Shown: in pieces, positions 4,343 to 62,909 of the stretch | Layout: every line of letters begins with the position of its first letter | How positions within the stretch are numbered: position 1 is the stretch's first letter | Source of the DNA: a virus | IMG/VR virus record: IMGVR_UViG_3300021440_000015 | Location: 1 to 64,000 of that record | Reading direction: 5' to 3' (one strand) | DNA length: 64,000 nucleotides | The notes under the pieces: generated by a model | The model's input: only the letters and a program-made list of their open reading frames with translations | Databases searched by the model: none | What the model was told of the DNA's origin: nothing | Made by a program: the position numbers and the translations under genes

Positions 4343-4349
4343 GATATCG

Positions 4350-4385
4350 CTAGTGGTTTAAGTTACACATCTGTAACACTGCTGG
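4350..4385 (+). promoter_or_regulatory. Structured leader of cassette 1
   Basis: Outer stem CTAGTGGT (4350-4357) with ACTGCTGG (4378-4385), partly by G-U pairs; inner stem GTTAC/GTAAC (4362-4366, 4373-4377) with loop ACATCT; TTAA between the stems. The ribosome site AAAGAGAT follows. The same fold occurs in six other cassettes with different stem bases. Confidence 0.75.
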
Positions 4386-4399
4386 TTAAAGAGATACTC

Positions 4400-4729
4400 A
4401 TGGCAATCAAAGTTTGCAACGCTTTCAGTCTCAGCATGGTGTCGGCGCTCGTCGCCGACATCAAAGTGATCCAAATCACCCCGGCTGAAGTCAAGGAGTT
4501 TTTGGAGGTAGGGGTGGAAAGCTGTGTCGGTCACGCCGACACAGCCAATGTGTTCAGCCAGCAGCTGGGGGTGCAAATCCCCGCTGCTCGTGCGACAGTT
4601 AGTCTCGCCGATGGCGAGATGATTCTGGTGGGCCAGTACTCTGGTCCACGGCTCCCAGAGGGGGCGACATCGCTGCCCGAAGGGGCAAACATCAAATGGG
4701 TAGTCTTGCTCGTGCGATATCCGGTGTGA
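4400..4729 (+). CDS. AcrIII-1-type viral ring nuclease (DUF1874), copy 1
   Basis: 109 residues. N-terminal 'VCNAFSLSM', central 'SCVGHADTANVF', and C-terminal 'VGQYSGPRLPEG...IKW' are the DUF1874 hallmarks. This family includes AcrIII-1, which degrades cyclic tetra-adenylate and so switches off type III CRISPR effectors. His45 and Glu87 sit where the catalytic His and Glu of archaeal virus members lie. A paralogue is at 21153. The coding DNA is tiled with perfect hairpins (for example 4440-4460 and 4521-4545). It has its own promoter, leader and terminator. Alternative: a ring nuclease with another cyclic-nucleotide substrate. Confidence 0.85.
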   Translation: MAIKVCNAFSLSMVSALVADIKVIQITPAEVKEFLEVGVESCVGHADTANVFSQQLGVQIPAARATVSLADGEMILVGQYSGPRLPEGATSLPEGANIKWVVLLVRYPV

Positions 4730-5938: not shown

Positions 5939-7387
5939 ATGAAGCCTTATATAGAACTCCTCAAGGACATCCGTGATAATGGACATGATCACCCTGATCG
6001 CACTGGAGTAGGTCGTCGATCTATTTTCGGTAGACAAGTCCGATTCAACATGAACGATGGTTTTCCTTTGGTCACTACTCGTAAGATCTTCTTTCGAGGT
6101 ATGAAAGAAGAATTGCTTTGGTTTATCGCTGGTGAGATTGACAACACTTTGCTGAATGAAGCAAATGTGCATATCTGGGATAACTGGGCTGTCACTGAAA
6201 AAACAGTGGATAAGTTCATGGAATACTTCTTGTCTAAGTTTGAATCAGAAGAAGATCGTCAGAGTATGGCCAGTAATGAAATACTCATGGCTAAACTTCG
6301 TGAACAGATCAGTGAGCGTATCGGATCTATCGGTCCTTTGTACGGTTTTAACTGGCGCCATGCCCCTGCTGATGAGATGAGTAACATCCACCAACTTCTC
6401 AGAAACAAACCACCTATCGAAGACATTCCTTCTGATAAAGTAGAAGCTTTTAAAGAAGCTTATAAAGAATATCTTGCTTTTAAAGAAGCGGAAGGTGATG
6501 GAACAGATCCTGTTACAGAGATTGAGTTCATTCAGAAGACTTATGTCTCTAAGGTAGATCAGTTAGGTATTCTTTTGGCTGAACTGAAGAACAATCCTTA
6601 TTCTTCGCGTCTTGTGGTAAGCTCATGGTTACCACAATTCATTCCTGACAATAAGATCTCTCCTGATTTGAATGTATTGTTGGGCGCGGGTGCTTTGGCA
6701 CCATGTCACGTTATGTTCCAATGCTTTGTACAACCTGCTCTCAATGAAGGCGGTAAGAAACGTTTGAACCTACTTATGTTCCAGCGTTAACAACTGAGCG
6801 CTGTGTAGATAGAAATATCTATTTGAAAATTCCTCTAATTGCTGGAAACCCTTGTTAGACTACTAAACCAAAGCGGAGTGTGAAAACACATACGTAACGT
6901 GTTTGAAAATTAGTAGGTAGAGACAATCAGCAGCTAAGCTCCTTTAAACTGGAGAAAGTTCAACGATCATCCCGTAAGGGAGTAGGATCTAGCAGATCCG
7001 AAACGGGGAACCCTTAACAGGTAAAGCTGAAGGTGGTGATATGATCTAATCTTTACAGAGATGTAAAGCCACAGTTAAAAACTGTGATTGTCGGTTGATA
7101 CACCTATAGGTGCTCCATACAACATAGCTCAGTATTCATTGCTATTGCATTTGATTGCTCGACATGTAGATATGGAACCTAATGAGTTCATTTGGTCTAC
7201 TGGAGATACGCACATCTACACAGACCAACTACATTTGATAGATGAACAGATCTCTCGTGAACCCAGACCTCTTCCACGACTTGTCTTTAAAACAGACGAG
7301 ACAGATATCTTTAAAATCAAATCCGAAGATATTGAACTGGAAGGATATGATCCACACCCACATATACCCTACCCGGTAGCTACCTAA
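5939..7387 (+). CDS. thyA: Thymidylate synthase, split by a group I intron
   Basis: Exon 1 is 5939-6787, the intron 6788-7090, exon 2 7091-7387, giving ~381 residues. It makes dTMP from dUMP with methylene-tetrahydrofolate. Exon 1 has 'DRTGVGRRSIFG', 'FPLVTTRKIFFRGMKEELLWF' and the active-site Cys in 'LAPCHVMFQ'; it ends at 'NLLMFQR'. Exon 2 opens with 'SVDTPIGAPYNIAQYS' and carries 'GDTHIYTDQLHL', 'SREPRPLP'. Joining restores the universal QRSxD...G.P.N motif. The protein is longer than E. coli ThyA (264) because of an insertion around 'DKVEAFKEAYKEYLAF'. DHFR follows 1 nt later, so the pair forms a folate/dTMP unit. Confidence 0.93.
6788..7090 (+). ncRNA. Group I intron in thymidylate synthase
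   Basis: 303 nt, no ORF. Exon end CAGCGT (6782-6787) pairs perfectly with the guide GCGCTG (6798-6803), placing the required U-G pair at the splice site. The core has 'ATTGCTGGAAACCC' (P4 side), 'AGTTCAACGATCA' (P7 5' side) and 'GATATGATCTAATC' (P7 3' side). It ends in G at 7090. The first intron codon is an in-frame TAA, so unspliced mRNA stops at once. The core shares a 41-nt identical block (6925-6965) with the helicase intron. T4 td is interrupted a few codons downstream of this site. Confidence 0.9.
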
Positions 7388-9091: not shown

Positions 9092-9128
9092 GTTACAGTT
9101 TAATCGAAGCATCTTTCGAACTTGTGAC
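9092..9128 (+). promoter_or_regulatory. Structured leader of cassette 2
   Basis: Outer stem GTTACAGT (9092-9099) with ACTTGTGAC (9120-9128, one bulged T); inner stem TCGAA/TTCGA (9104-9108, 9115-9119) with loop GCATCT. The inner stem sequence differs from GTTAC/GTAAC in cassettes 1, 3 and 7 but pairing is kept. AAGGAGAT follows. Confidence 0.75.
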
Positions 9129-9141
9129 TAAGGAGATAGTA

Positions 9142-9783
9142 ATGGAACAGTTTTCCCTGACATTGGGTGTTGTGTTTTGTACGGTGGTTGCTTTGACCAC
9201 AGGCTGGTCCCTGTTCGGGGACCGGTTGAAGGAGAGTCAAGTGGTCAGGCTTGTCCTGACCATCTGCTGCACCACTTGGTGGTGCAAGACCGCCAAGCTC
9301 CCTAACGGGAGAAAAGTGAAGTGGGTCGAGATGCCAAATTGGTATTGGTTGACCACTATGGTAAGACATCCTGTAACAGGGAAAGTCTTTATGACGAACC
9401 TCACTGATATTGTTGGTAATTTTGGCGGTGGGATGACCATGTCGATCGGTAAGGTCGATTTGGTGCTGACCATGAAAGGTCTCTACAGCGAGGAGACCCT
9501 GAAGTTCATTACGGAGCATGAATTTGGTCACCTTAAGGGTCAACATATGTTCCGACTTGAAGATGCCGGATTGGCAAAATCAATTCAGCGTTTTGAGCTG
9601 GAAGCAGATGCTTATGCGGCATCTGTGGTTGGTTTCCAACAAGCGTATTACGCTTTGATGGAAATTCGTCAGGTAATGACGGATACTCTTCTGGATCATC
9701 CAGAAATTCTGGAATCCCTGGAAGAGCGGGTGTTGGCAATGCGTGAGAAGTTCAAAGCTTCTCAGCAGCCTGTGCTCTGCTGA
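9142..9783 (+). CDS. Membrane-anchored HExxH metalloprotease (M48-like)
   Basis: Start ATG 9142, behind AAGGAGATAG. 213 residues. A hydrophobic N-terminus (residues ~5-22) anchors it to the membrane. 'EHEFGHLKG' (HExxH at 126-130) and 'ELEADAYAA' (152-160) match the zinc ligands and downstream acid of M48/HtpX/BlaR-type peptidases. Shorter than most M48 enzymes. The DNA carries perfect hairpins, for example 9206-9223, 9243-9261, 9268-9286, 9478-9498 and 9744-9764. It could cleave a host membrane or regulatory protein early in infection (inference); target unknown. Confidence 0.75.
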   Translation: MEQFSLTLGVVFCTVVALTTGWSLFGDRLKESQVVRLVLTICCTTWWCKTAKLPNGRKVKWVEMPNWYWLTTMVRHPVTGKVFMTNLTDIVGNFGGGMTMSIGKVDLVLTMKGLYSEETLKFITEHEFGHLKGQHMFRLEDAGLAKSIQRFELEADAYAASVVGFQQAYYALMEIRQVMTDTLLDHPEILESLEERVLAMREKFKASQQPVLC

Positions 9784-9785
9784 TA

Positions 9786-9833
9786 AAAATAACACCCCAG
9801 CCCAAAAGGCCAGGGTGTTATTTTTTTTTTGTT
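9786..9833. terminator. Terminator of cassette 2, bidirectional
   Basis: Stem arms AAATAACACCC and GGGTGTTATTT around a GGCC-containing loop, then a run of T. The minus-strand helicase stop begins at its far end, and the same hairpin followed by TTTTT can end helicase transcription. Confidence 0.85.
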
Positions 9834-11864
9834 TAACTAGGTAGAAACAAAGATTCGTCTGTGTTGGTAGCTACTGACCTAAGCTTTCTAATTGGAATAT
9901 GTTGTATTTCGTTGATATCTTCAGGGATAGGCATGCCCTTAGGAAACTTCAAAATGAAATACTTATAGTCGTCGTTGATCACTGTAGGTAAACGATGTTT
10001 ACCACGCTGCACTGTCAAATAAGTTTCTCTGTTGTGTTTAACCAGATGGATGTAGATTTCTAAGTCTACTTCCTGATCTAGCTGCCTGCTTCCAGAGGTA
10101 TAGCCTTTCTCAGCCACTTCTTTCACAAACTGATCTTCTGCAACACCACCTCTTACCAAAGCTTTAGCCTCAGGAGAAAGTTGATGAGGCGTAACTACGA
10201 ATGTACCTCTCTTTTTGTCCAGTGGATTCGCTATTTTCCACCCGGTGCGCTTACACACCCGCCTATACTTTCATACAGGAACAGACCATATCTTCACCCT
10301 CTGTATAACAGTAGGGTGTTCTCCGCTTCGGATCGCTTGATCCTACACCTTGCTTAAGGGCTGGCCGTTGAACTTTCTCCAGTTTAAAGGAGCTTAGCTG
10401 CTGATTATCCAATTCTTATATTTTTCAAACTATCACGCTCATCGTTTCCGATCACGTTGTAGTATATAAGACTCTAAAGGACTTCCCAGCAATTCAAAGA
10501 AAAACATTAGAGCATCTCTACTCTAACGACCTGTAAATGTTTCCTTTTGTACAAGTTCCACCTGTATTCAAATACCGTGTAATTGTTCTTGCTTGAAGAC
10601 TAATTGATTTAGCTGCCTGTCTTATTGACTCAGCAACTATTTTAGTACCATCCGGCTTAACAATTAAAATTTTACTAAACGGTTTTGATCGTAACATTAG
10701 TTAAGTAGCGCAAAAGTTTCTTACTCGTCTGATCAGATCTCTCATGTCTGTACCGATAGGACCAGATGTAATACATCCTGTCGTAGGCACCATAGCTAAA
10801 TAATCCAGAAACAAACCTTCGATGCTGTAACCCTGGGCTTCCAGTTCAATAACTTTGCTACAGATGTTGCGATAAGACCATTGAGTAGGATCTACCCGCA
10901 TCATTTTAACATGGAAACCGGTTTGCTGCAACTCTTTCTTTACGTAAGACGCCATCTCCTCAACAGAGAGATCTTTCATACCTACGTATTCTCTTGTCTC
11001 GTTGTACTTAAGATACTGATACAAGAACTGAAGATTGTTTACAAGCTCATCCTCAAAAGAGATCCTCAACAATAAAGGTTTCTTACCCGGATCTATATTG
11101 TTAGGTTGGTTCAATCTAGCAATTTGGGCAAATAAAGAAAGATTGAAACCTGTCTTGTATTTATGCTGGAGTGCCGGAGTTATGATAAACTCAGCTGGAC
11201 GTATGCCACCCTGCAACATATCGTTAAGATCAGTCCAACCTGTCTTATAGATACGAGCACCTTCATTGTTCTGCTTGATAGCTGAGAACACTTCTCTCAA
11301 AGATTCATCACTACCCAGATCCACCTCACCCATCACAGCAGGATCTTTAGAGCTTGTGTTCAGCTGTAAAGGTTCTAGTTGACTAATGAGTTCAGCAATA
11401 TAACCGTTGATATCTTTGATGCTATCTCTTTTGTAACGAAAATCCATGCTGTACTTACTAAGCACCTCACCGATCTTGCGCTCTCTGAAATAGTTATTAA
11501 TTGTCTTTCTTGTGTTGACAATAGAACGTTTCAAATTACTTTCAGGAATATTATCCTGCAAACCAGACTGTATGACTTCAAATAAATTGGTGTCATACAT
11601 GCAGTTGTGCTTAATGGTTTGAATCAGAGCGTTTGTATCATATTCATGATCTGGTGGATAACCACACATTTCAAGAACGGTTGTTTTTAATCGAACGATG
11701 ATCTCTTTGTCTGTATTTACATTCAAGGTAGAGGCATCGTCAATGATCTTAATGCTCTCAAGCACAGTTCTTACCAAGTCAGAACTATTTTCTGTTTTCT
11801 GTTTCAGCTGACTTTCACGGAACAAAAGGGTAATGCTTTTAGCAAGCAAAAGTTTATCATCCAT
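9833..11864 (-). CDS. DnaB-like replicative helicase, split by a group I intron
   Basis: Exon 1 is 11864-10704 (387 residues), exon 2 10210-9833 (125 residues), joined to 512 residues. The RecA-like core shows 'ITPALQHKYKTGFNLSL' in the Walker A place (Lys-Thr kept, glycines lost), 'GLFLDYLAMVPTTG' as Walker B, then 'IRRVRNFCAT' joined to 'RGTFVVTPHQLS', the sensor Gln segment. The join gives the same length as E. coli DnaB across this region. It should unwind the replication fork with ATP. The long helical N-terminus (residues 1-190) is unfamiliar. The odd P-loop suggests either a divergent ATP site or reduced activity. Confidence 0.8.
10211..10703 (-). ncRNA. Group I intron in helicase gene
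   Basis: 493 nt on the minus strand. A 41-nt block (10366-10406) is identical to the core of the thymidylate synthase intron (6925-6965), followed by a matching 'GGATC..GCGATCCGAA' hairpin and 'AAGATATGGTCTG' (P7/J8-7 region). Like its relative it starts with TAAC, so an in-frame stop faces the 5' exon, and it ends in G (10211). It carries a small ORF near its 5' end. The exact 5' pairing (P1) is not resolved; the splice sites were chosen from protein continuity. Confidence 0.8.
10518..10697 (-). pseudogene. Homing endonuclease remnant in helicase intron (NUMOD1-like)
   Basis: 59 residues: 'ILIVKPDGTKIVAESIRQAAKSIS' followed by 'ARTITRYLNTGG...KGNIYRS' is the helix-turn-helix DNA-contact module (NUMOD1-like) normally at the C-terminus of HNH or GIY-YIG homing endonucleases. 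No nuclease domain precedes it inside the intron, so it is a leftover tail, or a small DNA-binding protein. It begins 6 nt inside the intron. Confidence 0.55.
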
Positions 11865-12601: not shown

Positions 12602-14743
12602 ATGAAATTTGGTAAATCCACGGGTCAGCAAAAAACCCAAGTTCAGCAACTACTGGTGCATCTGCGTAACACCGTCGAAGGTGGTCGCATGGTTACTCCT
12701 GAGTCTACCAAGACCATGTTTGCCCTGGAGTCTGCACAAGACTTCCAATTGGCTGAACTGAACAATGTACATGAAGGTCTGAGCACCGCTATCGAATCGA
12801 TCGTGGCTGACCTGGGTCTGGGTTATAAACTCACTCCTGCTCAAATCACTGCCGGTTCTATCGGCGGCATGATCGCTGCTGACCCACGTCATCTGCTGAG
12901 CCGTAAAACCATCTCTAGCCCTGTGGCTATGGAAGGTGCTGTGGTTGTGCAAACTATGGGTGCTGCTGAAGGTATGTCTGAGCGTGCATTCGGTCTGGAA
13001 GCCTATGACGAGCGCGAGAACCGCAACGCTTCGATCTACTCGATCGCTTACAACATGCAGTCTGCTCGTCAAGACGAGTTCGGCGAAACCTTCTTCCCTA
13101 CTCTGGTTCTGACTCCTGACCAAGTTGGTTTTGGCGTGACCGTGGATCTGATGACTGTGTTTGATGCAACTCAACACAACATCGACGGTGCATTCCGTGA
13201 CTTTGGTAAGAAGAACATCATCCGTGCTGTGGCCGATGCTTCGATCCTGAAGAAAGAACAGACCCGCGTGATTCCAGCTGTGCGTCCTCAAAACGCCGCT
13301 CAGTTCGTGGATCCTGCTGTCGTAGCTCCTGCTGCTGTGATCGTCGAAGGTCAATCTATCACTACCGCTCCTCTGAAGATCGGTAAAGAACTGAACCTGA
13401 TCGCCGTGGGTCAAACCGATGCTCTGCTGGCCACTGGCGTGATGGACAACACCGACACTCTAGACACCTTCTTGAACCTCAAGAACGTCTATGTCAAGTT
13501 CGGTGCTGACGTTCTGCGTTTCAATGTGTCGAACCTGCCTTTGGCTAACTTCACATACAGCACGCAAAACAACTATCGCGTGATGACTCTGAACTTCGAA
13601 ACCACGAGTGTTCTGATCAACCGTGATACCAAGCAAGCTGACGGTTCCGCTCTGGTGGATCTGGCTGGTGTGGTCGCTGGTAACCTGATTGCTCGCGTTG
13701 AGCTGAAGTTGACTGGTTCTGTGAACATTGAAACCGGTAAGACTTCTATCTACGGTAACGCTGTGCAGACTCACGTCATTCTGGACTCTACTGGTCAACA
13801 ATTGGATCAAGCTGTTGCTCCTGCCGCTCCTGTGGTAGCTGTGGTCAACGCTGGTACCATCGAAGGTTACGACCTGACTGCTTTCTACACGAACATGAAT
13901 CGTCGTCAACGCGGTCAGTTGATCGACGTGACCAAGTTCACGCAACTGTACGCTGTGCCATTGCGTTCGCCTATCTCTGCTATGCACCCTGCTGTGGTCG
14001 ACGCTTCTGTCGACGCTACCGACGTGCAAGCTCTGATCAGCGCTACTCGTATCCGCGTGTCTAACGAAGCAGTTTCTGCTCTGATCGACGCTGCTGGTAC
14101 TTTGGCTCAGTATGTAGATGCTGCTGACGTGTTGGGTGAAGGTCCTGACGTGTTGGGCGTGGGTCGTTTCTTTGTGCGTCCTACCTACTTCCAGGAAACT
14201 CTGGATATGGCGACCATGGTGGACTCCATCAAGTCGTTCGAACGCGCTCAAGACATGCAAGCTGCTCTGGTGAACAAGCTGCGTGATTACGCTTACCGCA
14301 TGTATCGTGACTCTGAGTACAAAGCTGCTGCTGACGCTCTGAGTGGTGGTATCTCTGCTGTGCCAGTTGTGATTATCGGTACAGATCCAGTGCTGGCTCG
14401 TTACCTGAACGTGTCTGGTGATCTGCGTACGTTGGGTGGTGAGTTTGATGTTCGCATCGTCTCTACGCTTGACAGCCGTGTTGCCGGTAAGATCTTCATG
14501 ACCTTCGGTGTGTTCAACGAGCAGCGTAACACTGCTCCTAACCCATTGAACTTCGGTAACATGATCTGGGGTCCTGAGTTGGTGATGACTGCTAATCTGA
14601 GCCGTGGTAACACCTACAGCAAAGAGACCGTGGTGCAGCCACGTTATGCATTCGTGACACACCTGCCTATCATGACGACCTTCGTTGTGAACAACGTACC
14701 TGCTGTACTTAACAAAATCCCGGTGAATTTTCATCAGATCTAA
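12602..14743 (+). CDS. Major capsid protein, phiKZ type
   Basis: 713 residues, strong ribosome site AAGGAACTCGAA. Content and size fit the giant-phage capsid family of phiKZ gp120: 'YSIAYNMQSARQDEFGETFF', 'LTPDQVGFGVTVDLMTVFD', and a C-terminal 'FVTHLPIMTTFVVNNVPAVL'. The N-terminal ~130 residues are helical and charged like a propeptide; 'FGLE-AYDE' at residues 130-137 fits the G/A/S-x-E cut rule of giant-phage prohead proteases, which would leave ~580 residues (inference). Codon use is more GC-rich and regular than in neighbours, typical of a very highly expressed gene. Followed by a strong terminator. Confidence 0.85.
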   Translation: MKFGKSTGQQKTQVQQLLVHLRNTVEGGRMVTPESTKTMFALESAQDFQLAELNNVHEGLSTAIESIVADLGLGYKLTPAQITAGSIGGMIAADPRHLLSRKTISSPVAMEGAVVVQTMGAAEGMSERAFGLEAYDERENRNASIYSIAYNMQSARQDEFGETFFPTLVLTPDQVGFGVTVDLMTVFDATQHNIDGAFRDFGKKNIIRAVADASILKKEQTRVIPAVRPQNAAQFVDPAVVAPAAVIVEGQSITTAPLKIGKELNLIAVGQTDALLATGVMDNTDTLDTFLNLKNVYVKFGADVLRFNVSNLPLANFTYSTQNNYRVMTLNFETTSVLINRDTKQADGSALVDLAGVVAGNLIARVELKLTGSVNIETGKTSIYGNAVQTHVILDSTGQQLDQAVAPAAPVVAVVNAGTIEGYDLTAFYTNMNRRQRGQLIDVTKFTQLYAVPLRSPISAMHPAVVDASVDATDVQALISATRIRVSNEAVSALIDAAGTLAQYVDAADVLGEGPDVLGVGRFFVRPTYFQETLDMATMVDSIKSFERAQDMQAALVNKLRDYAYRMYRDSEYKAAADALSGGISAVPVVIIGTDPVLARYLNVSGDLRTLGGEFDVRIVSTLDSRVAGKIFMTFGVFNEQRNTAPNPLNFGNMIWGPELVMTANLSRGNTYSKETVVQPRYAFVTHLPIMTTFVVNNVPAVLNKIPVNFHQI

Positions 14744-16440: not shown

Positions 16441-19400
16441 ATGATCAAGTATATCATCAAGCGAGATGGAACTAAAGAAGAATATACACCCTCTAAACTG
16501 AACAAATGGGCTATATGGGCTACTGACAGTTTAGGCGATCGTGTGGATTGGTCAGGTGTGGTGCTTGATGCTTTAAGTAACTGTAAAGAGATTGAGAATA
16601 GTCAGAGTCTTCAGAAAGAGTTGATCAACGCTTGTTTGTATAAGAAAGATTGGCCGCATAACGTGATGGCTGGTCGACTGTATGCTGCTTGGTTACATAA
16701 AGCTCTCTATGGTGATGAGATGCCTACGGTTAAGAAGATCAATGAAGATTTGATCAAGACCGGATTGGTTATTGACATGGGATACACAGATGCTGAGTTT
16801 GAAGTAATCGAAAGCATCATAGATCATAAGCGTGATTTTAATTACGCACATAGTCAAATCAAACAAATCCATCACAAGTACAGCATTTCTAATCTGGTAT
16901 CTGGTATCAGGTATGAGACCCCTCAATATACGTTCATGCGTATGGCTATGCGCTTGTCTGATGATATCGAAGACAGTCAAGAAAAGCTTAAGTTGGTGCA
17001 AGAATACTACGATGAGTTTAGTCTGAACCGTCTTAATGCGCCTACACCCAACTATGTGAACTTGGGAAGCCCTCTGAATGGCTACGCCAGCTGCTGTTTG
17101 GTTGAGGTGTCCGATAACAACGAGTCTATCGATTGCGGTGACATGATCGCTTCTAAGATGACAGCTGCTTCTGCTGGCATCGGCACTCATCACAATCTGA
17201 GATCTATCGGTGATCCTGTACGCGGTGGTCGGTTCCCCCATGGTGGTAAGCGTCCTTACTTTGCTACTACAGCTAAGAACACCATCAAAGGTGTGCAAGC
17301 AGGTCGTGCTGGTGCTGCTACATTTTACTTTGACATCTTTGAAAAAGAAGCCAAAGATCTCATCATGCTTCAGAACCCAAGAACTCCTGAAGCCAAACGC
17401 AATCGTGATGTACACTTTGCTGTGATGACTAATAGTTTCTTTGCTAGAAAAGCAAGAGACGATGAGCAGATGTTTTCTTTTAACTGCTACACAGCTCCTG
17501 ATCTTCATGCAGCTATGTTCAGCGGAGACATCGAGAAGTTTGAAGCTTTGTATAAGAAGTACGAAGAAGACGATAACTTTGCTAAAGAGTATGTGAGCGC
17601 TCGTGATCTATGTTTGACTATGTTGACACAGTTTGAAGAGGTATCTACTCTGTATCACTTCAACGTTGAAGAGGCTAATCGCCACACCCCTTTTCAAGAA
17701 CCTATCCATAGTTCAAATCTTTGCGTTGCGCCAGAAACACCAATTCTGACAAAAGAATTTGGTTATGTTAGAATTTCTGAAAAAGTGAATCAAGAGGTTA
17801 GTGTTTGGAACGGTGACGCGTGGTCTAAAGTTACGGTTAAAAAGACTGGTGAAAACCAGCATTTGCAAACTGTATTTACAACAACAGGGACTGTACTTGA
17901 GGCTACAGACTATCACAGATGGTTTGTTCAACTTCAAAACAAACACGGTGCTAAAAAAGATGTCGTCGTGAAAAGAACCACAGAGTTACAACCCGGTGAT
18001 AAACTGATCAAATTCGAAACATCGGCTGTTGATCACGGCAGATCTACTCTGCCACTTGCTTATGAAAATGGGTTCTTTACTGGTAGCGGTACCATTTCTG
18101 GAAAAAATCCAGTAATATATCTTTACGGAAAGAAACGTGAACTTCTGCCTTATTTTCAGGATAAAGAAGGTATTATAAGCGTAACTAAAAATGAGCAACG
18201 GTTCAACATTCGTTATAAGACAGATGTATTAAAGGAAAAATTCTTCATACCTTCCTGTACGCACACCATAAAAACCAGACTTGAATGGTTTGCAGGTTTG
18301 TTAGATTCAGATGGGTGTTTGATGGATAATAAAGGATCTGCTTCTTTACAGATAGTTAGTGCTAATTTTGATTTTCTTTATAGGCTTAAACTGTCTTTAC
18401 AAGAACTTGGTGCGATGACTTCTGTAACCAATGTAGCAGATGCGGGTTTTAAAAGTATACCAAACCATAAAGACGGTAAAACCACCCACTATTGTCAACA
18501 GGAATGGAGACTCTTACTTTCTAATGATGAGTTATATAAACTTATCACTCTAGGTTTAACTTTAAACAGAATCGATCTTTCAAAAGTCAGGCCAGGTAAC
18601 AGAACAGCACGACGTTTTGAAATGATCAAATCTGTCATAGATAAAGGACGTTATGACGATACGTATTGTTTTACAGAACCTTTGAAAGGAATGGGTGTAT
18701 TCTCAGGTGTGCTTACAGGAAACTGTCTGGAAGTTACCGAACCCACATCAGGTTATAATTCGGTGCAAGACCTGTATAGAACTGGTGATTATGGCCATAT
18801 TTCATTCTCACAGACTAATGGTAACATAGTTAAACTTCCTTATAATCTTGAAGTGTCTGTAACTGGCAGGGGTAGGACTTATGCAGGTAGTCTGACAAAA
18901 GGTGAGTTCTTCTCAGTGCCTAATAGTAACACTTATAAGAACTATGTCGTGGGTGATATAGTTAGCAAGGAAATTCCAGGAGAAGTAGCGCTGTGCTCAC
19001 TTGGTGCTGTTGTTCTTCCTAACATTCTTACAGACGAGCAGTATCACAAGACCTGTAAGTTGGCTCTGAGAATGATCGACAGATGTATACATTTGTCTAC
19101 CTATGCTTTGCCACATATCGGTTTCACTGCTAAGAATCGTCTGAATGCTGGCGTTGGACATATTGGACTGGCTACAGTGCTTGCTCGTAAAGGTCTTAAG
19201 TATAGCACGCTTGAAGGTCGTAATGAGATTCATCGTATCTCTGAACGCCATGCCTACTTTGTCATTAAGGCAGCTCTTGAATTAGGTATTGAAAAAGGTA
19301 ACGCTCCTTGGATCCATAAAACAAAATGGGCTAACGGATGGTTACCTATTGATACTTATAAGAAAGCTGTGGATGAGTTGGTCACTACTGATCTTCAGTA

Positions 19401-19887
19401 TGACTGGGAAGCTCTTCGTTCCGATATCGTTAAAAACGGCGGTATTCGTTTTAGCTGTCTGATAAACCTGATGCCTACTGAATCCTCATCTAAAGCTTCA
19501 GGTGTGCCTAACGGTCCTTATCCTATCCGCGCTTTGTCTTTGAAGAAGTCTGATGAGAACAACACAGTGGATTGGGTAGCTACTGATAGTGATCTGTTGG
19601 GTGATAAGTACGAGATCGGTTATGATATCCCTGGTGTAGATATGATCAAAGCTTATGCTGTTATGCAAAAGTTCACTGATCAGTCTATCAGCGTGGATAC
19701 CTATAAAGATAGATCTAAGAATGTGATGCTCAGCGATAAGCAGATTTTGACTGAATACTTTACCATGATTAAGTATGGAGTTAAGTCTAAGTATTACAGT
19801 AATACACTCACCAACAGCAAAGATGGGTCTGGGGAGGTTCAAGAAATGGCTGTGGAAGAGAACTGCGGTGACAGCTGCAAACTTTAA
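16441..19887 (+). CDS. nrdA: Ribonucleotide reductase class Ia alpha subunit with intein
   Basis: 1148 residues, of which 334 (428-761) are an intein; the mature enzyme is 814 residues. ATP-cone at the N-terminus ('IIKRDGTKEEYTPSKLNKWAIWA'), substrate-site Cys in 'SPLNGYASCCLVEV', the radical Cys in 'SSNL-CLEVTEP' (where the intein sits), 'LINLMPTESSSKASG', and the thioredoxin-facing tail 'NCGDSCKL'. It reduces ribonucleotides to deoxyribonucleotides together with NrdB, encoded 11 nt downstream. ATG follows AAGGAAGT. A long-lived dNTP supply fits the phage's thyA and DHFR genes. Confidence 0.95.
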   Translation: MIKYIIKRDGTKEEYTPSKLNKWAIWATDSLGDRVDWSGVVLDALSNCKEIENSQSLQKELINACLYKKDWPHNVMAGRLYAAWLHKALYGDEMPTVKKINEDLIKTGLVIDMGYTDAEFEVIESIIDHKRDFNYAHSQIKQIHHKYSISNLVSGIRYETPQYTFMRMAMRLSDDIEDSQEKLKLVQEYYDEFSLNRLNAPTPNYVNLGSPLNGYASCCLVEVSDNNESIDCGDMIASKMTAASAGIGTHHNLRSIGDPVRGGRFPHGGKRPYFATTAKNTIKGVQAGRAGAATFYFDIFEKEAKDLIMLQNPRTPEAKRNRDVHFAVMTNSFFARKARDDEQMFSFNCYTAPDLHAAMFSGDIEKFEALYKKYEEDDNFAKEYVSARDLCLTMLTQFEEVSTLYHFNVEEANRHTPFQEPIHSSNLCVAPETPILTKEFGYVRISEKVNQEVSVWNGDAWSKVTVKKTGENQHLQTVFTTTGTVLEATDYHRWFVQLQNKHGAKKDVVVKRTTELQPGDKLIKFETSAVDHGRSTLPLAYENGFFTGSGTISGKNPVIYLYGKKRELLPYFQDKEGIISVTKNEQRFNIRYKTDVLKEKFFIPSCTHTIKTRLEWFAGLLDSDGCLMDNKGSASLQIVSANFDFLYRLKLSLQELGAMTSVTNVADAGFKSIPNHKDGKTTHYCQQEWRLLLSNDELYKLITLGLTLNRIDLSKVRPGNRTARRFEMIKSVIDKGRYDDTYCFTEPLKGMGVFSGVLTGNCLEVTEPTSGYNSVQDLYRTGDYGHISFSQTNGNIVKLPYNLEVSVTGRGRTYAGSLTKGEFFSVPNSNTYKNYVVGDIVSKEIPGEVALCSLGAVVLPNILTDEQYHKTCKLALRMIDRCIHLSTYALPHIGFTAKNRLNAGVGHIGLATVLARKGLKYSTLEGRNEIHRISERHAYFVIKAALELGIEKGNAPWIHKTKWANGWLPIDTYKKAVDELVTTDLQYDWEALRSDIVKNGGIRFSCLINLMPTESSSKASGVPNGPYPIRALSLKKSDENNTVDWVATDSDLLGDKYEIGYDIPGVDMIKAYAVMQKFTDQSISVDTYKDRSKNVMLSDKQILTEYFTMIKYGVKSKYYSNTLTNSKDGSGEVQEMAVEENCGDSCKL
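17722..18723 (+). mobile_element. NrdA intein with LAGLIDADG endonuclease
   Basis: Begins with Cys1 ('CVAPETPILT'), has a block-B-like 'ATDYHRWF', a LAGLIDADG motif 'WFAGLLDSDGCL', block F 'DTYCFTEPLKGMGVFSG' and ends 'VLTGN' before Cys+1. The residue before the terminal Asn is Gly rather than His, a known variation. Inserted exactly at the catalytic Cys of the enzyme, so only precise excision restores activity. Base content is more AT-rich than the flanking extein. Confidence 0.93.
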
Positions 19888-21102: not shown

Positions 21103-21139
21103 GCTGTGGTTTAAGTTACTTATCTGTAACACTCTCAGC
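21103..21139 (+). promoter_or_regulatory. Structured leader of cassette 3
   Basis: Outer stem GCTG/CAGC plus GGT/ACT, inner stem GTTAC/GTAAC with loop TTATCT. AAGGAGATAGTC-ATG follows. Confidence 0.75.
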
Positions 21140-21152
21140 TAAGGAGATAGTC

Positions 21153-21491
21153 ATGAGCATTAAAGTATGCAACGCATTCTCACTGAACATGTTGGCGACA
21201 TCCGTCGCCAACATTAACATTCAAGAAACGACTGCGGCGGATGCCGCTTACTTGATCCAAAAAAACGGAGGTCCAGAAAGCTGTGTCGGTCATGCTGACA
21301 CAGCTCGAATTTTCGGTCAGCAGCTGCTGACCGAAATCCCACTTGCACGAGTGACCGTGCAATTCACCCACGATGAATTCATCGTGGTCGGACAGTATTC
21401 TGGCCCACGGTTGCCCGAAGGGGCAGCCATCAAATGGTACGTGGTACACGTAAGTGTACCTGAATCAGTTGAGGAAACCACACTCGACTGA
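21153..21491 (+). CDS. AcrIII-1-type viral ring nuclease (DUF1874), copy 2
   Basis: 112 residues from ATG 21153. 'VCNAFSLNM', 'SCVGHADTARIF' (His47), 'IPLARVTV', 'GQYSGPRLPEG' (Glu89) and 'IKW' align with the copy at 4400, roughly half identical and with different C-termini. Expected role: cleave cyclic tetra-adenylate made by type III CRISPR systems. Perfect inverted repeats tile the gene: 21189-21214, a 26-nt palindrome at 21311-21336, 21368-21387. Several lie at the same codons as hairpins in copy 1 but with different bases. The two copies may differ in substrate or speed. Confidence 0.85.
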   Translation: MSIKVCNAFSLNMLATSVANINIQETTAADAAYLIQKNGGPESCVGHADTARIFGQQLLTEIPLARVTVQFTHDEFIVVGQYSGPRLPEGAAIKWYVVHVSVPESVEETTLD

Positions 21492-21492
21492 T

Positions 21493-21540
21493 AAATAACA
21501 CCCCTAGCCCTTACAGGCCGGGGATGTTATTTTTTTTTTG
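21493..21540 (+). terminator. Terminator of cassette 3
   Basis: Arms AAATAACA and CCCCTAGCC with GGCCGGGG and TGTTATTT, loop CTTACA, then T9. Core shared with cassettes 5 and 6. Confidence 0.92.
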
Positions 21541-26873: not shown

Positions 26874-26880
26874 GATATCG

Positions 26881-26916
26881 CTGTAGTTTAAGTCGTTCTT
26901 TCTGCGACACTATCAG
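26881..26916 (+). promoter_or_regulatory. Structured leader of cassette 4
   Basis: Outer pairs CTG/CAG and AGT/ACT, inner stem GTCGT/GCGAC with a 7-nt loop. The inner stem differs from the other cassettes, retaining pairing. AAGGAGATACTC-ATG follows. Confidence 0.72.
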
Positions 26917-26930
26917 TTAAGGAGATACTC

Positions 26931-27437
26931 ATGGCACAAATATTTGAAAAATTTTCGTTTGCGCTCTTGGGCGGTTGTATGGGCGGTCCGAATGACGATA
27001 CTTTACATCGAACGGATAGAACACCTACCACAGAAGCAGGGACAATATTCTACCGACACTGTCAACGTTTGATCAAGGAGAAAAAGACTCTGGTGTTTAA
27101 TCGAGAGTGGGGGAATGGCACAGGATACTATGACGGTATCTTGTACGAAAAGGAAATCTCTGATGGAGACATGTATGTCTCTTACGACTGGGAAACCGGT
27201 CGTTTTTTGATTGTGCAAGGTAGTGAACATGGACACATATGTGTCCATGAGCGGTATAAAAGTGGTAATGAAGGAATCTTTGTCAAGACTACTAAAAATA
27301 AACTGCTGTCTCTAATGGGTATTCCTACAGGAGCGGTAGGTCTCAGTTCGATGATTCAACTCCTGGGGGACTCCTGGGATGGGTCCGGTGCCATCGCCAA
27401 AAACATCAAGGAGTTGAAACAACTCCTGTGTAAATAA
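26931..27437 (+). CDS. Cassette 4 protein, unknown
   Basis: 168 residues. N-terminus 'FSFALLGGCMGGPNDDTLHRTD' is glycine-rich; the rest has aromatic and charged residues without a known motif ('REWGNGTGYYDGILYEKEISDGDMYVSYDWE'). Cytoplasmic by composition. The DNA contains perfect palindromes including a 22-nt one at 27228-27249 and a hairpin with arm AGGAGTTG near the end, as in the other cassettes. An early anti-host or counter-defence role is inferred from the cassette only. Confidence 0.65.
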   Translation: MAQIFEKFSFALLGGCMGGPNDDTLHRTDRTPTTEAGTIFYRHCQRLIKEKKTLVFNREWGNGTGYYDGILYEKEISDGDMYVSYDWETGRFLIVQGSEHGHICVHERYKSGNEGIFVKTTKNKLLSLMGIPTGAVGLSSMIQLLGDSWDGSGAIAKNIKELKQLLCK

Positions 27438-44663: not shown

Positions 44664-44672
44664 AAAGAATTA

Positions 44673-44706
44673 CTCTATATCAGCTTAGGCTGGTATAGAG
44701 TTTTTT
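44673..44706 (+). terminator. Fibre gene terminator
   Basis: 12-bp stem (arm CTCTATATCAGC, one G-U), loop TTAG, then TTTTTT. Confidence 0.9.
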
Positions 44707-44713
44707 ATTCGGC

Positions 44714-44748
44714 TTATAAACTTTTTCAGTCACATATACTTAACTTGA
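44714..44748 (+). promoter_or_regulatory. Cassette promoter 5
   Basis: TTATAA (44714-44719), 15 nt, TATACT (44735-44740), TAACTTGA. Identical to cassette 6 over CTTTTTCAGTCACATATACT and TTGA beyond. Confidence 0.8.
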
Positions 44749-44753
44749 TTATT

Positions 44754-44791
44754 GCTGATAGTTTAATCTAGGTTTTTCTAGAACTGTTAGC
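44754..44791 (+). promoter_or_regulatory. Structured leader of cassette 5
   Basis: Outer stem GCTGATAGT with ACTGTTAGC (9 pairs, two G-U), inner stem TCTAG/CTAGA (44767-44771, 44778-44782) with loop GTTTTT. AAGGAGATAATC-ATG follows. The clearest example of the fold. Confidence 0.8.
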
Positions 44792-44804
44792 TAAGGAGAT
44801 AATC

Positions 44805-45431
44805 ATGAAAGTTGTTTTCAACCTGTCCCCCGCGCAATCCTTGGTGGCTATTGCCATAAAAGCAAAAAAGTCAGCCTTGATGCGGCTGGAAGCCGGGGAA
44901 GGGCTGGGGAAACATTTCCCCAATTTGCTGAACGGCGAATTGCATTCAGCCCTTGGGGCTGAATGGGAGTTCAAATACGACGGCAATCTCGCCGTCGTAT
45001 TTAACGACGGCATGGCCGGGAAACAGACACTAGAGTTGTCCGAAGACAACTCTAGTGTAACCTACGAGGGTGGTCGGACCACCCTCGTAGACGGCATGGC
45101 CGGGTGTATCTTGACCCTGCGAGAAATCGCAGGGGGTGATGAGAAGAGTCTGAAGGTGATCTCTTACGAGACTACCGATCCCAGCCTAAGCTGGTGGGAA
45201 ACCACTAGCATGGCTATCCGACGTAAGTCGGATGAGGAGTTAGCTGCTCTGTCAAAGCAACGGAAAACCTGGCGTTTTCTAGATCAGGAACTGGACCACG
45301 AGGCCCGTCGGCGTATTCCGACAAAATTAGCCGACCTCGTGTCGGCTGGGAAAACAAAGCTGGTCTCGGCGAGTTTCACCCCCAGTGAAATCCGCCGTTA
45401 CACGGTTCTAAAGCCGTGTCTGGTTGAGTAA
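44805..45431 (+). CDS. Cassette 5 protein, unknown, extreme hairpin-coded gene
   Basis: 208 residues without a known motif; N-terminal half beta-rich, C-terminal half basic and helical ('AIRRKSDEELAALSKQRKTWRFLDQELDHEARRR'). The coding DNA is the best case of hairpin tiling: perfect stems at 44944-44964, 44975-45000, 45029-45056 (12 bp) and 45062-45090 (13 bp), with many shorter ones after. Far more GC-rich than neighbours. Host-takeover or counter-defence role inferred from the cassette. Confidence 0.7.
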   Translation: MKVVFNLSPAQSLVAIAIKAKKSALMRLEAGEGLGKHFPNLLNGELHSALGAEWEFKYDGNLAVVFNDGMAGKQTLELSEDNSSVTYEGGRTTLVDGMAGCILTLREIAGGDEKSLKVISYETTDPSLSWWETTSMAIRRKSDEELAALSKQRKTWRFLDQELDHEARRRIPTKLADLVSAGKTKLVSASFTPSEIRRYTVLKPCLVE

Positions 45432-45476
45432 AATAACACCCCTAGCCATAACAGGCCGGGGGTGTTATTTTTTTTG
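45430..45476. terminator. Terminator of cassette 5, bidirectional
   Basis: Arms AAATAACACCCC and GGGGTGTTATTT with inner GCC/GGC, loop ATAACA, T run. Serves the convergent spike gene as well. Confidence 0.92.
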
Positions 45477-49157: not shown

Positions 49158-49162
49158 TGTAT

Positions 49163-49203
49163 AGCTATAGTTTAATAGATCTGTTCTGATCTGACTACTA
49201 GCT
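49163..49203 (+). promoter_or_regulatory. Structured leader of cassette 6
   Basis: Outer AGCTA/TAGCT and AGT/ACT, inner AGATC/GATCT with loop TGTTCT. GAGGAGTACATT-ATG follows. Confidence 0.72.
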
Positions 49204-49215
49204 GAGGAGTACATT

Positions 49216-49308
49216 ATGGATTGGCTCGATATCATTGTGATCGCCTTTGCGGCGATCACCACCCCAGCAATTGTCTGGGAAGCAGTGACGGATCGCCGCC
49301 GTCGCTGA
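49216..49308 (+). CDS. 30-residue membrane micropeptide, cassette 6
   Basis: Directly behind the leader and GAGGAG. One hydrophobic helix (residues ~5-21) and a C-terminal 'TDRRRR'. The helix is coded by a perfect hairpin (arm GATCGCC). Alternatively a leader peptide whose translation controls the second gene 137 nt downstream. Too short for family assignment. Confidence 0.6.
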   Translation: MDWLDIIVIAFAAITTPAIVWEAVTDRRRR

Positions 49309-49445
49309 CTTCCCAAGAGGTTGACAACTAACCTCTTTAAATAAATGGTTGGGTCGTAACCTGCCCTGACGCTTGGCCAGCAAAAAGGGATTACTGATCT
49401 GTCTAAGTTCACATGTCGTGAATACAGATTAACAGGAGAAACAAA

Positions 49446-49751
49446 ATGAGCATGATACCGCTCAGAGAAAGGGCAGAAGGCTGGACAACTGATGAGTCAG
49501 TTGTCCGTCAGCTGCGGCAGAAGGCCGCAACGAAGGCGGCGGAAATCGCCGCTTGTGGTGATGATGACTACATCCATTATAAGGATGTGGTGCTAGCCAC
49601 AACGCCAGTTGGTGAAAACTGGCACGAGTACGAAACACTTCTTAGCACTCGCGACGAAGAGTTAAAGAAAGAGCTACGTCCAGTTGATGCCTGGATGTGG
49701 AGCGGCAGGAGCAAAAAATGGGTATACCGTTGCAACGGTTACCTAGATTAA
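49446..49751 (+). CDS. Cassette 6 second protein, unknown
   Basis: 101 residues, AGGAGAAACAAA upstream. Charged, helical N-terminal half and a Trp-rich C-terminus ('DAWMWSGRSKKWVYRCNGYLD'). Perfect hairpins include 49483-49506 (10 bp, loop TGAG). The 49309-49445 spacer contains an AGAGGTT/AACCTCT hairpin and ends in its own ribosome site. Function unknown. Confidence 0.65.
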   Translation: MSMIPLRERAEGWTTDESVVRQLRQKAATKAAEIAACGDDDYIHYKDVVLATTPVGENWHEYETLLSTRDEELKKELRPVDAWMWSGRSKKWVYRCNGYLD

Positions 49752-49795
49752 AAAATCATCCCTAGCCCTTACAGGCCGGGGATGATTTTTTTTGT
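49751..49795. terminator. Terminator of cassette 6
   Basis: Arms AAAAATCATCCC and GGGATGATTTTT, CTAGCC/GGCCGG core and loop CTTACA as in cassette 3. Convergent with 49797. Confidence 0.9.
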
Positions 49796-62646: not shown

Positions 62647-62683
62647 ACCAATGTTTAAGTTACACATCTGTAACACTATTGGT
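62647..62683 (+). promoter_or_regulatory. Structured leader of cassette 7
   Basis: Outer stem ACCAAT/ATTGGT (62647-62652, 62678-62683), inner stem GTTAC/GTAAC with loop ACATCT. AAGGAGATACTC-ATG follows. The outer stem bases are unique to this copy. Confidence 0.78.
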
Positions 62684-62696
62684 CAAGGAGATACTC

Positions 62697-62909
62697 ATGA
62701 TTCAATTCAACAAAGAAAACATCATTGCTTTTGCAGTGGGCGCCGCAGCAATCACTGTTGTCGATGCTGCCTGTCGCGCAATCTACCGCGCGCGCAAAAA
62801 CAAAAAAGCTGCAGAAGCCACAAACAAAGCAGCTGCAAAAGAAGCTGGCGAAACAGCAACCACTGCTGGCGAAACAGCAGCGGCAGCCGCCGCAGCTGCT
62901 GCAACCTAA
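62697..62909 (+). CDS. Small membrane protein with Ala-rich tail, cassette 7
   Basis: 70 residues from ATG 62697. Hydrophobic N-terminal helix ('IIAFAVGAAAITVVDAA'), basic patch ('RAIYRARKNKKAA') and a tail of Ala with two AGETA units coded by a direct repeat (62844-62858 and 62865-62879), each forming a GCTG/CAGC mini-hairpin. Probably an inner-membrane protein with a cytoplasmic tail. Function unknown. Confidence 0.65.
   Translation: MIQFNKENIIAFAVGAAAITVVDAACRAIYRARKNKKAAEATNKAAAKEAGETATTAGETAAAAAAAAAT

Follow-up and report, generated by a model that had tools for sequence, protein, structure and literature searches.

In a phiKZ-like jumbo phage, a short RNA leader with two stems recurs directly ahead of the ribosome site of small genes, and covariation of both stems strongly supports its being a selected structured RNA, as the first-pass annotation had proposed. 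The window, meaning the whole stretch of DNA analysed, covers bases 1–64,000 of a viral record of 120,257 bases (G000). The annotation had listed three functions (a stabiliser, a translation enhancer, and a protein-binding site) without choosing among them. We propose, at a probability of roughly 45%, that the leader is a self-folding 5′ insulator and protector of structured, early, probably anti-defence mRNAs.

From 5′ to 3′, the leader consists of an outer helix, a 4-nt bulge on the 5′ side, an inner helix of 5–7 bp, and a small loop, and the inner helix stacks on the outer helix on the 3′ side. The bulge is UUAA, rarely UCAA or CUAA. Only two or three of the distinct copies depart from TTAA, against a background of varying stems and loop; this conservation is inflated by the partial collection of copies through GTTTAA, though a descriptor search still returned CTAA and TCAA bulges. 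The loop is not strictly conserved, and the TCT ending described as usual holds for part of the larger set of copies and not for the rest. All seven copies originally listed, 44754–44791 among them, were recovered with the sequences described, and the two-stem form is predicted for each on its own, with folding energies (z −0.65 to −3.53) that, unlike the covariation, are unconvincing by themselves. A descriptor based on structure alone (outer stem, YYAA bulge, inner stem, loop, and Shine-Dalgarno sequence, SD) identified 10 copies in the 120-kb record: eight in the window and two in the rest, every one in the sense orientation. A reversed-sequence control gave none. The eighth window copy had been missed (Table 1). 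A covariance model built from ten copies matched 9, 14, 9, 6, and 3 copies in G000, G001, G002, G003, and G004, respectively, giving ~32 copies across the four related contigs (G001–G004). The alignment behind this model (A2) omits one loop base in two rows, which touches the search model only and not the covariation statistics.

Table 1. Coordinates of leader copies, associated signals, and leader genes in the window
Feature	Position	Strand	Details
Leader copy	4349..4386	+	Before AcrIII-1-family gene 4400–4729
Leader copy	9092..9128	+	Before HEFGH-motif gene 9142–9783
Leader copy	21103..21139	+	Before second AcrIII-1-family gene 21153–21491
Leader copy	26880..26917	+	Before gene 26931–27437
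Leader copy first described	44754..44791	+	Outer stem 9 bp, bulge TTAA, inner stem 6 bp, loop TTTT
Leader copy	49162..49204	+	Before short ORF 49216–49308
Leader copy (eighth), operon-internal	49395..49431	+	Bulge CTAA; no early-type promoter; before gene 49446–49751
Leader copy	62647..62683	+	Before ORF 62697–62909
Putative early-type promoter motif TCACATATACTTAACTTGA of copy 44754..44791	44730..44748	+	By analogy to AR9/phiKZ early promoters
Putative early-type promoter motifs of other copies	4324, 9068, 21078, 26855, 49139, 62622		
Shine-Dalgarno AAGGAG, spacer, and ATG start	44793..44807	+	From sequence
Terminator-like hairpin with T run, upstream of cassette	44672..44706	+	
Terminator-like hairpin with T run, downstream of cassette	45430..45476	+	
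Conserved 29-nt sequence before operon-internal copy	49364..49392	+	
Leader gene	4400..4729	+	PF08960/DUF1874 match (AcrIII-1 ring nuclease family); hairpin-packed
Leader gene	9142..9783	+	HEFGH zinc-protease motif; hairpin-packed (z −8.5)
Leader gene	21153..21491	+	PF08960/DUF1874 match; hairpin-packed (z −6.5)
Leader gene	26931..27437	+	
Leader gene	44805..45431	+	208 aa; hairpin chain up to 14 bp
Second gene of operon, behind internal leader copy	49446..49751	+	Hairpin-packed (z −6.3)

Inner arms were positioned by the fixed flanking sequence, and complementarity was not used. Against a tree-based null, the five inner pairs are the best five of 435 column pairs (E values 0 to 0.0175, the smallest lying below the test resolution of 0.0025), and the next-ranked pair has an E value of 3.4; the copies come from five related contigs and the tree from 33 columns. 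Of 19 distinct inner stems, 16 have all five positions paired, whereas re-dealing the arms would give 1.85. One of the three non-complementary stems, G001_97592, proved to be misread (its bulge is one base shorter) and was excluded from later tests. In a model-fitted alignment, which is biased towards structure, 98% of inner cells are paired, with a covariation score of 0.608 compared to 0.221 after shuffling. The register of the outer stem shifts between copies and its single columns show no significant covariation, so this stem was tested as whole arms. Its own duplexes average −3.81 kcal/mol, against −1.68 ± 0.28 kcal/mol for re-dealt arms and −2.77 kcal/mol for the best of 20,000 shuffles. 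The paired changes claimed for both stems thus hold, for the inner stem in a phylogeny-aware test on copies from related contigs of the kind the first-pass annotation had named. Non-Watson-Crick inner pairs comprise 11 G-U and no A-C, and because of this wobble asymmetry, selection on the leader is seen to act on RNA of the mRNA strand.

At the Rfam 15 gathering threshold, group I introns are the only matches in the window, with no family for the leader, and a permissive scan of 49290–49460 gave sub-threshold matches only. A DNA search with the 131-bp region in isolated phages returned nothing relevant. The descriptor found no copies in phiKZ and FLC9 segments and one match in AR9; apart from that match, no fold of this type was seen outside the clade in the relatives and databases searched. 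By these comparisons, the leader belongs to no Rfam family. More distant relatives of the leader genes are without it, and a promoter-like match in G025 is a single case. The record contains five group I introns, at 6778–7068 and 10262–10563 in the window and at 9139–9458, 9525–9805, and 14229–14534 of segment L050; three are close to RNA polymerase genes.

Gene content identifies the phage as a phiKZ-like jumbo phage. The window encodes virion proteins of phiKZ type, the major head protein (phrog_3231) among them, and the remaining part of the record codes for multisubunit RNA polymerase subunits, a tail sheath, and a terminase. Among isolates, Burkholderia phage FLC9 has the most similar capsid protein (42.6%). 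The large subunit of ribonucleotide reductase (16441–19887) has an insertion at about residues 446–836, likely an intein, and the G002 and G000 reductases are 98% identical. As a guide to phage identity this protein was misleading, since its best matches are intein-bearing homologues in ICP1-like phages. Chimallin homologues were identified in G002 (E 1.7e-23) and G001 (E 1.4e-21), and none was found in the partial G000 record. Because both of these relatives carry the leader, the leader-bearing lineage is probably nucleus-forming.

With few exceptions, leader copies are found downstream of an early-type phage promoter and upstream of the SD. The conserved motif TCACATATAYTTNAYTTGA precedes nearly all of them; in G000, 15 occurrences lie on the coding strand and 1 on the other, and a reversed-pattern control has none. 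The early promoter of AR9 is AAATATATATTAT-(6N)-G (PMC5312081), and phiKZ-type early (virion RNA polymerase) promoters were recognized as an AT-rich element ~6 nt upstream of the start, recurring ahead of early genes on their coding strand. The leader-associated motif resembles these early promoters of phiKZ-related phages, and from it we infer early timing. By the same analogy, the RNA would start near the G of TTGA, with the fold beginning a few nucleotides later. The SD follows 1–3 nt after the fold, just where it had been placed, and the stretch ahead of the SD is 44–48 nt. The described position at the very 5′ end agrees with the motif-predicted start for nearly all copies and fails for those internal to operons (G000 49395, its orthologue in G002/G003, and one in G001), which have no early-type promoter and likewise sit just ahead of an SD. 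A 29-nt sequence, CCCTGWCGCYTGGCCAGCAAAAA(A)GGGATT, precedes the promoterless copies and in IMG/VR is found only in G001–G003. Two other roles were rejected from this arrangement. An intrinsic terminator or attenuator does not fit a fold that leads into an SD and not a T run, and an SD-masking riboswitch or RNA thermometer does not fit an SD that lies 1–3 nt outside the fold.

Terminators stand on either side of many leader units, which makes most units self-contained cassettes. Those behind three leader genes (45430–45476, 21500–21534, and 49755–49790) have a common inner sequence, TAGCC...ACAGGCCGGGG. At ~72106 on the minus strand of G002, a leader is followed by four codons, a stop, and a terminator-like sequence, which looks like a decayed cassette. 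Beyond the window, at G000 119203–119290, a hammerhead-like sequence (type I) directly follows the same kind of early-type promoter; it scores 16.1 bits in Rfam (threshold 34), and its core, CTGATGA...GAAA, looks intact.

In most genes that follow the leader, the coding region is a succession of 8–14 bp hairpins, far more structured than synonymous shuffles. Perfect hairpins (at least 8 bp, the longest 14, with loops of 3–8 nt) number 5.1 per kb in leader genes. The corresponding density is 0.28 in the remaining genes, and synonymous shuffling gives 0.59. The excess of local folding over synonymous shuffles reaches a median of −5.2 kcal/mol per 60 nt in leader genes, compared with −1.3 in others (P = 0.00013; P = 0.00022 against size-matched genes). 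Of ten leader genes, seven surpass the whole set of 106 others; three G000 leader genes are not strongly packed. The same packing is present in all eight G002 leader genes tested and in several of G001. Genes behind early-type promoters without a leader show no outlying packing, and it does not stand out in AR9, phiKZ, and FLC9 segments. Taken over all their genes, G000 and G002 have somewhat more local RNA structure than synonymous shuffles (mean z about −2.3 to −2.5); by the same measure, the value is −1.2 for phiKZ and FLC9 and −0.6 for AR9.

Coding hairpins with one mismatch have 21 G-U and 4 A-C in leader genes (expected ratio 1.19; P = 0.0005) and 59 G-U and 46 A-C in other genes, and the G-U excess over A-C argues that the coding hairpins act as RNA. 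Particular hairpins turn over between orthologues and are mostly no better kept than under a codon null, with one orthologue pair of three clearly better; for this reason hairpin density, and not the individual hairpin, seems to be the selected trait. Leader and packing are separable, since the HREDGPA-repeat genes of G001 and G004 have the leader without strong packing. This repeat family follows many of the G001 leader copies and has apparently multiplied recently. With the set search terms, open-access papers yielded no report of hairpin-packed early phage genes, though prior work may exist.

Two of the leader genes, 4400–4729 and 21153–21491, match PF08960/DUF1874 (33.8 and 29.8 bits; curated cut-off 26), the family that includes the viral ring nuclease AcrIII-1. 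On this evidence they are AcrIII-1 homologues and predicted CRISPR blockers. The product of an AcrIII-1-family leader gene matches AFV3-109, and a conserved GH motif aligns with the GH of that protein. The motif probably corresponds, through the alignment made to AFV3-109, to the catalytic His47 of AcrIII-1 (SIRV1 gp29) (PMC7213978). DUF1874 genes of three other viruses have ordinary structure and no hairpin packing, which speaks against packing as a property of the gene family. The HEFGH-motif gene (9142–9783) has a weak M48 match below cut-off and IMG/VR relatives only in G001 and G002. Most other leader genes code for small proteins with no assigned function. The phiKZ-like early-type promoter, the hairpin-packed coding regions, and the AcrIII-1 genes are context that the first-pass annotation did not have.

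In the reading we prefer, the cassette comprises an early-type promoter, the two-stem leader, an SD, usually one small gene, and often terminators on both sides. Between the predicted start site and the SD, the leader RNA would fold on itself, giving the message a structured 5′ end and insulating the ribosome site, which could otherwise pair with other parts of a highly structured message. When the leader is replaced by shuffled sequence, the modelled energy for opening the SD-to-ATG region rises from 4.4 to 5.5 kcal/mol (P = 3e-6), a modest gain in accessibility, some of which any self-contained hairpin would give; of the role in translation suggested earlier, an open ribosome site therefore has modest computational support. 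Because a structured 5′ end is joined to a hairpin-chain coding region, the mRNA would have little exposed single strand except at its start site, and should resist single-strand-specific attack by host RNases, RNA-targeting CRISPR, and HEPN nucleases. The small size of this accessibility gain counts against the reading, as do two further observations. The nearly fixed UUAA bulge is superfluous for a pure insulator or stabiliser, and packing is not strong in the HREDGPA-repeat genes or in three G000 leader genes.

Nucleus-forming phages evade DNA-targeting CRISPR and are vulnerable to type III systems and Cas13 (PMC12908238). It is a tentative extension of the insulator reading that these early anti-defence mRNAs are folded end to end against RNA-guided and RNA-cutting defences, the same messages encoding AcrIII-1. 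The nucleus would shield the DNA and leave mRNA exposed, and type III CRISPR, Cas13, and HEPN RNases would find little single strand. The leader, whose letters change and whose fold is kept, would then be part of the armour.

The bulge is the main reason for keeping a binding protein as a strong rival, itself doubtful as it stands. A phage or host protein would bind the UUAA bulge between the helices and so control translation, stability, or routing of early messages as an RNA regulon. A bulge nearly fixed amid drifting stems and loop fits such a tag, as do the many unrelated genes, some within operons, that the fold precedes; the RNA-binding protein ChmC of nucleus-forming phages is thought to export mRNA (PMC12908238). 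ChmC would be a candidate partner only, the loop is not strictly conserved, and collection through GTTTAA inflates the bulge conservation on which the argument leans. Operon-internal copies bear in turn on the stabiliser role, in which a hairpin does no more than block 5′-end-dependent decay, an effect known from certain bacterial and phage mRNAs. That nearly all copies lie a few nucleotides from the predicted start favours the stabiliser suggested at first pass, but in its pure form it is unlikely, since copies inside operons would need RNA processing at that point to acquire a 5′ end, and a conserved 4-nt bulge would be unnecessary.

We regard as quite improbable a translation switch in which AUCU of the loop would pair with the AGAU that follows the SD, hiding the ribosome site until the pairing is released. 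Loop AUC and SD-flanking AGAU do tend to co-occur (12 of 21 versus 1 of 8, P = 0.044), a count made by eye on related copies after the data had been seen; many copies lack the match, and predicted folds leave the SD outside both stems. Least credible of all is a DNA-level feature, either an operator or palindromes left by a strand-blind mutation process. Inverted repeats are dense in both leaders and genes and particular coding hairpins turn over, as such a process would allow, yet it would be blind to strand and the ratios of G-U to A-C are 11:0 in leaders and 21:4 in coding hairpins (P = 0.0005), against 59:46 in other genes. An operator would retain its sequence.

Several known systems invite comparison. 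Hairpins that stabilise 5′ ends, such as that of the E. coli ompA leader, place a stem-loop near the 5′ end and before an open ribosome site; unlike them, the leader has a conserved 4-nt bulge, a variable sequence, and many genes behind it, and also occurs inside operons. RiboJ, an insulator leader made of a hammerhead plus a hairpin, likewise folds on itself and keeps the ribosome site independent of surrounding sequence. The record also has a hammerhead-like sequence after an early-type promoter, although the two-stem leader is no ribozyme as far as can be seen. Compared with pervasive beyond-chance RNA structure in coding regions, the packing described here takes the form of separate short hairpins, occurs in individual early genes of a DNA phage, and is tied to the leader. 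In AR9, a Bacillus phage related to phiKZ, a 5′-UTR motif has been predicted in early transcript leaders, with its function not established (PMC5312081). That motif and the two-stem leader are alike in their placement, but eight early AR9 leaders examined have no two-stem fold, a comparison made on the leader sequences themselves. In archaeal viruses, regulatory sequence has served as bait for anti-defence genes, with a common early cassette marking anti-CRISPRs (PMC11065993); the bait there is a DNA promoter consensus, whereas the counterpart in this bacterial jumbo phage would combine a promoter with an RNA fold.

An RNA family that covaries and has no Rfam entry thus appears to mark early cassettes in a probably nucleus-forming phage lineage. 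As two of its genes are AcrIII-1 homologues by sequence, the leader may be usable as bait for new anti-defence genes. If the messages are indeed folded for protection, these phages would have a second protective layer, in which the phage nucleus hides the DNA and folded messages hide the RNA.
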